Shown: positions 51,348-54,432 of the stretch, in pieces | Layout of the letters: the number at the start of each line of letters is the position of its first letter | Numbering within the stretch: the stretch's first letter is position 1 | Assembly (NCBI GenBank): GCA_002238725.1 | Contig: MPMX01000021.1 | Span: 1 to 64,000 of the forward strand | Reading direction: 5' to 3' | Source of the DNA: Rhodospirillaceae bacterium bin65 | GTDB taxonomy: Bacteria; Pseudomonadota; Alphaproteobacteria; Bin65 | Length of the DNA stretch: 64,000 nt | Translations under genes and position numbers: made by a program | Notes under the pieces: generated by a model | Told to the model about the DNA's origin: nothing | Databases searched by the model: none | Seen by the model: only the letters and a program-made list of their open reading frames with translations

Positions 51348-51761
51348 TCAGCAAGCCAAGACCGCGACATGGCCCTCCCCGCCATAGTCGAGCAGGTGAC
51401 GGTCGCGGGTCACCAGCGTGTAGCCGTAAGCCCGCGCCGTTGCGACCATTATCCGGTCCACCGGATCGGCGGGCGGCAAACCGGGCAGGTTGCAGGAAGC
51501 GATCAGCACTGCGGGAGGCAACTCTGCGAGCACTACCCCAGGCAGATCGCAAAACTGGTTGAACCAGACTTCCGGGCTGATCGTGAGCGCCAGTTTCCCC
51601 TTTGCTTCCAGCATGGCGACCTCCCAAGCGGTCATCGGAGAAAGGAGAAGTCTTGTGGTCTCTTCGCGTGCATCGCGAAGCGCGCCGGCTCCCGGTTCCC
51701 GAATCGGATCGCCGTTTGCGATCCAGATTGCCGCGCAGGTATCGAGCAGAAATTCGGTCAT
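51348..51761 (-). CDS. PIN-domain toxin
   Basis: A 137-residue PIN-domain ribonuclease: MTEFLLDTCAAIWIANGD (first Asp), LLLSPMTAWEVAML (Glu), LPPADPVDRIMVATARAYG (Asp) and LVTRDRHLLDYG (Asp). It is of the PIN subfamily usually paired with Phd or AbrB-type antitoxins. It lies 6 bp downstream of the antitoxin gene on the minus strand, between plsY and dprA, which are normally adjacent. Confidence 0.92.
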   Translation of the reverse strand: MTEFLLDTCAAIWIANGDPIREPGAGALRDAREETTRLLLSPMTAWEVAMLEAKGKLALTISPEVWFNQFCDLPGVVLAELPPAVLIASCNLPGLPPADPVDRIMVATARAYGYTLVTRDRHLLDYGGEGHVAVLAC

Positions 51762-51767
51762 CGCCGG

Positions 51768-52211
51768 TTACCGTCCCGCGTCCCATTCCGTGCTGTCGGG
51801 CGCGGTAAGATCGGTCCCGGGCCGTACCGTGACCGTGCCTTTGAGCGCGCCGTAAATGCTCTGAAAGAAACCCGCACCTGGCGCTCTTGCCGAAGCTGGC
51901 GCCACTTCGGCGGCCGAACCGCCGACGGCTGCCCCACTGCCGCCGTCTTCACGGGTAATTCCGTCCTGTGAGAATTTTCGAAACACCAGCTTGCAGCCTG
52001 GTACGTCGACTTTGGTCGACTTGTATCCCGCCTTGAGCCAGGCATCGGTAATGACGCTGTTGGACGGATTGTTGGACCACCAGGGCCTGTGTTTGAACGC
52101 GGACGGCGGCAACTTCCCACCGATGATTCTTTCGATTTCTCCAAAAGTCATCGGCACAGCTGTCCGCCCGGATGCGATCAGATGGTCCGCCAGGGGATCG
52201 TATTTTGACAT
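51768..52211 (-). CDS. Antitoxin fusing a DUF7662-like domain to a toxin-binding tail
   Basis: A 147-residue protein. Residues 3-80 look like the DUF7662 fold (KYDPLADHLIASG, MTFGEIERIIGGKLPPSAFKHRPWWSN, ITDAWLKAGYKSTKVDVPGCKLVFRK), not a Phd, AbrB or ribbon-helix-helix domain. A Gly/Ala-rich linker follows. The last 33 residues (FFQSIYGALKGTVTV...DLTAPDSTEWDAG) match the C-terminal neutralising peptide seen in antitoxins of PIN toxins, which normally ends in D-L-T-x-P...W. The ATG at 52211 has GGGATT about 8 bp upstream; an alternative ATG is at 52217. It is 6 bp from the toxin gene. Assigning DUF7662 as DNA-binding is inference. Confidence 0.72.
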   Translation of the reverse strand: MSKYDPLADHLIASGRTAVPMTFGEIERIIGGKLPPSAFKHRPWWSNNPSNSVITDAWLKAGYKSTKVDVPGCKLVFRKFSQDGITREDGGSGAAVGGSAAEVAPASARAPGAGFFQSIYGALKGTVTVRPGTDLTAPDSTEWDAGR

Positions 52212-52236: not shown

Positions 52237-52287
52237 TAACTATATATAGTTAAAGGTACATTCATCCTAATTTCAAGAGTTAACTAT
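52237..52287. promoter_or_regulatory. TAACTAT operator array upstream of the DUF7662-PIN module
   Basis: TAACTATATATAGTTA (52237-52252) is a perfect 16-bp palindrome made of two TAACTAT half-sites. A third TAACTAT lies at 52281-52287, 35 bases beyond, in an A+T-rich stretch immediately upstream of the antitoxin start. A TTGACA (minus strand, 52300-52305) may be the -35 box. This is the arrangement of an autoregulated TA promoter. Confidence 0.65.
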
Positions 52288-53588: not shown

Positions 53589-54017
53589 TCAGGCGGCGTA
53601 AGTCTCGACGACGAGTTCGCGGCCGAGCGCATGCAACGCCTTGTGAATCCGGTTGGCCGAGCTGCGATGGCGCGGATCGAGCATCCGGCGTACGGCTTTT
53701 TCATCAACGCCCAAACGGGCCGCCAAGGCGACCCGGGTGACGCCGCTCTCGCGCAGCGCGACCGCCAGAGCCGCCTTGGCCGCAGTTTCGGCAGGTACGG
53801 CGACCAGGTATTCGCCGGCACGCCGCGGGCTGGGTACGGGAAGCGATTCAGTGTCGTCGATTCGACCCGCGATAGCTTCTTCGAGTGCATCGGCCGCCTC
53901 GGTAAGGGCCTCGGCAATGTCGCCGCCGGAGGTCAGGCACTCCGGCAGGTCGCGGAATGAAACGACGATCTCGTCCGGTCCGGTTCGCCTCAGTACGGCG
54001 GGATAGGTAAATCGCAT
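53589..54017 (-). CDS. hicB: HicB-family antitoxin
   Basis: A 142-residue antitoxin. The HicB fold is visible in RFTYPAVLRRTGPDEIVVSFRDLPECLTSGGDIAEALTEA. An XRE-type helix-turn-helix (ALRESGVTRVALAARLGVDEKAVRRMLDPRH) follows at the C-terminus for autoregulation. It lies 21 bp downstream of the frameshifted hicA. With the toxin probably inactive, it may be a solitary antitoxin able to cross-protect. Confidence 0.9.
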   Translation of the reverse strand: MRFTYPAVLRRTGPDEIVVSFRDLPECLTSGGDIAEALTEAADALEEAIAGRIDDTESLPVPSPRRAGEYLVAVPAETAAKAALAVALRESGVTRVALAARLGVDEKAVRRMLDPRHRSSANRIHKALHALGRELVVETYAA

Positions 54018-54038
54018 TGCACTATCCTTCCGATAGCT

Positions 54039-54253
54039 CTAACGGAAATCGTCCCGGTTCAGTCCCAATTGGCGAAGCATGGCGGACAACAGGCCTGATC
54101 CGAGTTCCTTACGTCGGTCCTTAACGACCGTCTTGCGAGCGCCGTAATAACGATGATGTGGCTTCCTTTGCCGCGTTTGGTATCGATACGGACCGGGACG
54201 CCACGCGCCCGGCCGATCACCTGCACCCGTGCGATAAAGTCCCTGCACTTCAT
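54039..54253 (-). pseudogene. hicA: hicA toxin gene broken by a frameshift
   Basis: The start MKCRDFIARVQVIGRARG...RGKGSH is in one frame, but the conserved C-terminal part HRYYGARKTVVKDRRKELGSGLLSAMLRQLGLNRDDFR continues only in another. The break is at the codon pair after GSH, where CACATCATCG would read CAC-CAT-CAT-CG if one C were restored, giving the family motif KGSHHHRYYG. A single-base deletion, or a sequencing error, is the simplest explanation. HicA is an mRNA interferase with a dsRBD-like fold whose histidine is in GSHH. Both ends of the gene look otherwise intact. Confidence 0.8.
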
Positions 54254-54432
54254 CGCACAGAATATAGGTCGCGATTTTCCGAATGTTGAGCGAAATCGGA
54301 CAATAATGTCCGAATTGCCATGCCGATCGCAGGGGAAACAGTGAAATGCTTGACGCCGCGACGCCACGGTCCCATTTGCGGGGCCGGCCGGTGCGGCGAC
54401 CGCATCGCCCGTAAACGGATGATCGAACCGCC

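Follow-up and report, generated by a model that had tools for sequence, protein, structure and literature searches.

PIN toxins are paired with partner proteins of several families, listed by Makarova and colleagues in 2009 as RHH, AbrB, Phd, DUF433/COG2442, UPF0175/COG2886, DUF104/COG2880 and MerR-like proteins (PMC2701414). Among these, DUF433/COG2442, whose fold belongs to the helix-turn-helix (HTH) superfamily, was proposed as a PIN antitoxin from gene pairing (PMC2701414). It is moreover a general property of antitoxins that their DNA-binding and neutralising parts can be swapped (PMC10440598). Here we describe a two-gene locus of Rhodospirillaceae bacterium bin65, located in a 64,000-nucleotide stretch of contig MPMX01000021.1 (positions 1 to 64,000, called the window below), in which the N-terminal part of the antitoxin is a Pfam domain of unknown function, DUF7662. 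The pair is very probably a type II toxin-antitoxin module of the VapBC type, with a PIN toxin whose active site would be blocked by the tail of the antitoxin, and a winged-helix-like DUF7662 domain that would bind TAACTA/TAGTTA repeats in the promoter and repress the operon.

Like VapBC systems with an RHH/VapB antitoxin (PF09957), the locus combines a PIN toxin with an upstream gene for a two-part antitoxin; it differs in that the N-terminal half of the antitoxin is DUF7662. Pairs of a Phd/YefM antitoxin and PIN (loci L157, L139 and L135) have in common with it the tail pattern FGxLKGTVTI..DxxxPxxxxW, a related PIN toxin and the gene order, but carry a Phd N-terminal domain (PF02604) and TGACCAT-type upstream repeats instead of DUF7662 and TAACTA. 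The resemblance to DUF433/COG2442 is that of a PIN-linked antitoxin predicted by pairing, with a DNA-binding domain of the HTH superfamily (winged-helix-like, by prediction, in the window), although the two belong to separate Pfam families and the window antitoxin matches DUF7662 only. In Panacea (PanA)/NetFlax systems a single antitoxin domain also occurs with many partner toxins (PMC8832971, PMC10440598), but there neutralisation is linked to the promiscuous domain itself, whereas in the present locus neutralisation seems to fall to the tail and the reading of DNA to DUF7662.

As part-swapping is already established for antitoxins, the novelty of the locus lies in the DUF7662 domain and not in the principle. 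The preliminary description of this DNA had proposed a new antitoxin architecture, which holds for the domain but not for module swapping as such (PMC10440598). It had also placed the domain outside the usual antitoxin folds; no Phd, AbrB or RHH match was indeed obtained, but DUF433/COG2442 means that winged-helix-like folds are not entirely new among PIN partners (PMC2701414). DUF7662 would thus be a new, putative DNA-binding module within a familiar type of system, with no earlier reported role there in the open-access literature, a search of which found it mentioned in no paper (subscription papers and preprints were outside the search). Its likely function as the operon repressor domain of antitoxins would add one putative entry to the list of DNA-binding modules of PIN antitoxins.

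The antitoxin gene (51768 to 52211, minus strand) starts with ATG and codes for 147 residues, arranged as the DUF7662 domain, a variable linker and a putative PIN-neutralising tail. Residues 4 to 78 (51978 to 52202, minus strand) match PF24698 (DUF7662) with an E value of 2.8e-15 and 56.3 bits (gathering score 26), over positions 1 to 69 of the 72 in the profile, in line with the initial assignment of residues 3 to 80. RHH, AbrB and Phd domains are absent by Pfam, which returned DUF7662 as the sole match, and by NCBIfam, which returned none; NCBIfam, PADLOC and PHROGs hold no family for the antitoxin, and sequence searches of the PDB gave no credible relative of the N-terminal domain, the tail or the PIN group. 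In alignments the linker past residue 80 varies in length and in letters, whereas the tail (residues 119 to 147, IYGALKGTVTVRPGTDLTAPDSTEWDAGR; 51771 to 51857, minus strand) is conserved, with G121, G125 and D134 invariant. The protein occurs once in its own genome.

The PIN gene (51348 to 51761, minus strand, 137 residues; PF01850, E 1.6e-8) starts 6 bp past the stop codon of the antitoxin gene, the distance given in the preliminary description. Because the two genes share strand and frame, a single transcript can carry both; a promoter scan upstream of the antitoxin gene found no consensus promoter. The acidic residues D7, E47, D99, D102 and D120 are kept in 78 to 80 of 80 sequences, as in an active nuclease, and the protein is presumably an RNase toxin.

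When 398 genomes of the phylum were searched with the antitoxin protein, full-length relatives came up in several families. A PIN gene adjoins the antitoxin gene in the window and in its seven best relatives (loci named L001 to L008), and the PIN proteins of these relatives match that of the window at E 1e-25 or better. A scan of contigs from public genomes yielded 163 relatives, the best 80 of which were kept; as they were ranked by whole-antitoxin similarity, the set favours tail-bearing genes. Two small, adjacent, co-directional genes are maintained as a pair in this set, with PIN directly downstream in 79 of the best 80 at a gap of -23 to +26 nucleotides, so that homologues of the N-terminal domain do sit beside PIN genes. 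The exception, L130, encodes a protein that stops after DUF7662, without tail and without PIN. In sampled genomes, searched with the whole protein or with PF24698, PIN adjoined all distinct DUF7662 genes with a window-type tail (12/12), while short DUF7662 proteins lacking a C-terminal extension had no PIN nearby; tail and toxin are thus conserved together. The distribution of the pair is patchy, covering Alphaproteobacteria as well as Nitrospinota, Acidobacteriota and Gammaproteobacteria bins.

The conserved tail, kept beside PIN at 79 loci, is not confined to DUF7662 proteins. A profile hidden Markov model (HMM) made from the tails of DUF7662 antitoxins alone was run on 786 open reading frames (ORFs) around PIN genes related to that of the window. 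The best-scoring ORFs were antitoxin genes directly upstream of PIN, some of them with an N-terminal part other than DUF7662 (E 4e-10 for L142, 8e-9 for L145, 9e-9 for L139, 7e-8 for L146, and 2e-7 for both L135 and L157), and the best match outside Phd/VapB-like antitoxins upstream of PIN had an E value of 0.17. The N-terminal domains of these matches are of the Phd/YefM family in L157, L139 and L135, above the Pfam cut-off, and VapB/PSK-like, below it, in L146. Alignment of both kinds of antitoxins revealed that tail positions G6, G10, D19, P23 and W28 are invariant in each. The presence of one tail in Phd-, VapB- and DUF7662-type antitoxins argues for a PIN-partner module whose N-terminal domains have been exchanged, and confirms the earlier reading of the last 33 residues as a match to the tails of PIN antitoxins. 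This tail would then be the toxin-binding part, as in recognised antitoxins. Related PIN toxins with like tails, different N-terminal domains (DUF7662, Phd, VapB) and different operators amount to a natural swap, which makes the modular evolution of antitoxins testable. A second related PIN gene is found elsewhere in the same genome (contig C26, L156), after a Phd-like antitoxin with a tail of its own, PQAELEGTVVVTGDILGP.

Conversely, DUF7662 is joined to other C-terminal parts. At four loci (L011, L168, L169 and L170) a VapB-like part follows it in the same protein (PF09957, E 1.1e-5 in L170 and 3.7e-4 in L168), indicating that it can be added to another antitoxin. Three of these fusions (L011, L168 and L169) precede a PIN lineage other than that of the window; in L170 no PIN start is directly adjacent. 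A third C-terminal type (..SREQIYDxxGRLTGGP..) adjoins a third PIN group (L036/L045, L041 and L042), and a fourth, represented by L009 only, adjoins a PIN of its own. In a tree of PIN proteins, the window-type toxins cluster beside the toxin of L142, whose antitoxin is weakly Phd-like, and far from those of the other DUF7662 fusions; some deep branches are modestly supported and that of L009 is very long. This topology suggests that DUF7662 became associated independently with at least two PIN lineages and probably with more. The sequences further indicate that, beside distant PIN lineages, DUF7662 carries at least two and probably three C-terminal regions that are unrelated. The only partners encountered were PIN proteins and, in a fusion, HEPN_Swt1. 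DUF7662 thus appears to be an interchangeable piece of antitoxins.

The upstream region of the antitoxin gene contains the palindrome that had been taken for an operator. This putative operator, TAACTATATATAGTTA (52237 to 52252), is a perfect 16-bp palindrome and the single such site in the window when up to 3 mismatches are allowed (chance expectation 0); a third TAACTAT half-site (52281 to 52287, plus strand) lies upstream of it relative to the gene. Of 78 non-redundant homologue upstream regions, 31 contained TAACTAT and 21 contained TAACTATT, where dinucleotide-preserving shuffles gave expectations of 1.4 and 0.4; relatedness was handled in these counts solely by dropping near-identical upstream regions. 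Inverted pairs of half-sites occurred in 12 of 79 regions, versus 0 to 1 in shuffles. A simple palindrome test gave a weaker signal than the half-site test, with 37% of upstream regions exceeding the 95th percentile of shuffles, and was taken as a lead only. TAACTAT was found in none of 218 other upstream regions at the homologue loci, but these are GC-rich and their starts were set mechanically, which makes the shuffles the better control.

The most telling control was a set of 20 operons whose genes are related to the tail or to PIN but in which a Phd or VapB N-terminal domain takes the place of DUF7662. TAACTAT was present in one of them (Fisher p 0.003), whereas TGACCAT-type sites occurred in 11 of the 20 versus 4 of 79 DUF7662 operons (p 1e-6). 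The four DUF7662-VapB fusions, which have a different tail and, in three cases, a different PIN lineage, together contain 7 half-sites versus 0.4 expected. As the half-site is kept with DUF7662 across tails and PIN lineages and is rare under Phd or VapB, the operator goes with the N-terminal domain, as would be expected if DUF7662 reads it.

The predicted fold is compatible with such a role. AlphaFold2 modelled the DUF7662 domain from 51 sequences with a mean predicted local distance difference test score (pLDDT) of 93.7, in the order helix-strand-helix-helix-helix-strand-strand, which fits a winged helix. Foldseek with the N-terminal domain returned no match below E 0.001, but after re-alignment with VIA-align 2 the top matches, weak as they were, came mostly from winged-helix DNA-binding domains, among them RepE (Z 5.6), CtsR (4.9), and SarA and CAP (about 4). 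The models therefore make a winged-helix-like fold likely for DUF7662.

An alternative, which we regard as unlikely, keeps the PIN toxin-antitoxin pair but makes DUF7662 a module for dimerisation or for sensing, for instance of a nucleic acid or a partner, and leaves the reading of the promoter repeats to another protein. The many DUF7662 proteins that stand alone or are fused to HNH, HEPN or other domains point to uses outside antitoxins and agree with this alternative, as does the weakness of the fold matches. However, the half-site follows DUF7662 from one tail and PIN lineage to another and almost disappears when Phd or VapB replaces it, and the leading fold matches are mostly winged-helix DNA binders.

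A VapBC-type module with DUF7662 as its repressor domain thus remains the preferred reading. If the module works like VapBC and Phd-type pairs, the tail would fold into the active-site groove of PIN and block the toxin, DUF7662 dimers would hold the promoter at the TAACTA/TAGTTA repeats and repress the operon, and loss of the antitoxin would free both toxin and promoter. The proposal draws on domain make-up, operon, linkage of tail and PIN, sharing of the tail with Phd and VapB types and association of the half-site with DUF7662, all read from sequence, from which we infer toxicity, neutralisation, DNA binding and repression. Several observations weigh against it. The best fold match in the PDB, at Z 5.6, lies in a range that the alignment tool calls common. 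In an AlphaFold2 model of a read-through fusion of antitoxin and PIN, residues 84 to 126 mostly had a pLDDT below 50 and the tail about 50 to 70, so that binding of the tail was neither favoured nor disfavoured; the 3-residue linker of the fusion may have prevented its placement. Finally, the half-site is missing from roughly half of the homologue upstream regions, some of which have AACACTGTT-like repeats, implying that the operator diverges or that its link to DUF7662 is partial. Homologue upstream regions without TAACTA (L068, L069, L097, L117 and L121) often contain AACACTGTT or ACACACA-type repeats, which suggests that different members of the antitoxin family have come to recognise different operators.

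It is highly improbable that the locus is instead an ordinary regulator gene beside a housekeeping PIN RNase gene: the pair does stay beside dprA in the genus of the window, as a resident gene might, but its spread across phyla is patchy, its tail is common to Phd/VapB antitoxins, the gene junctions are very short or overlapping, and tail and PIN co-occur. In other species of the genus plsY is not beside dprA, and a search there for an empty plsY-dprA site gave no clean answer. On its other side dprA has, in the window, a gene for a HicB-like antitoxin (PF15919, below cut-off), preceded by an ORF that is HicA-like (53589 to 54366, minus strand); there is thus a putative toxin-antitoxin module on either side of dprA.

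Whether DUF7662 has a wider role is, in our estimate, evenly balanced. It could be a general portable module that reads DNA, and perhaps senses, in antitoxins and defence genes, that was attached on separate occasions to several PIN-neutralising tails, to HEPN and to nuclease proteins, and that brings the TAACTA operator along; if so, a whole new class of antitoxins would be recognisable by this domain.

DUF7662 was also observed in other settings. The tail-less protein of L130 (888 to 1127) is a stand-alone DUF7662 protein of 79 residues whose gene precedes that of a likely DNA methylase (DPFAGIGTT motif), and is perhaps the controller of a restriction-modification system. In two genomes of the same genus, HEPN_Swt1 (PF18731, E 8.8e-15) is fused to DUF7662 (L036, 766 to 1779, minus-local; L044, 922 to 1740), in one of them directly behind another DUF7662-PIN pair. 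The short DUF7662 proteins of L035, L037, L165 and L166 form a group of their own, which ends in a common ...LTIAEAKAGLAxxFGI...IEITIRA with no PIN nearby, and one of them, L037, has a TAGTTA/AATAGTT pair upstream.
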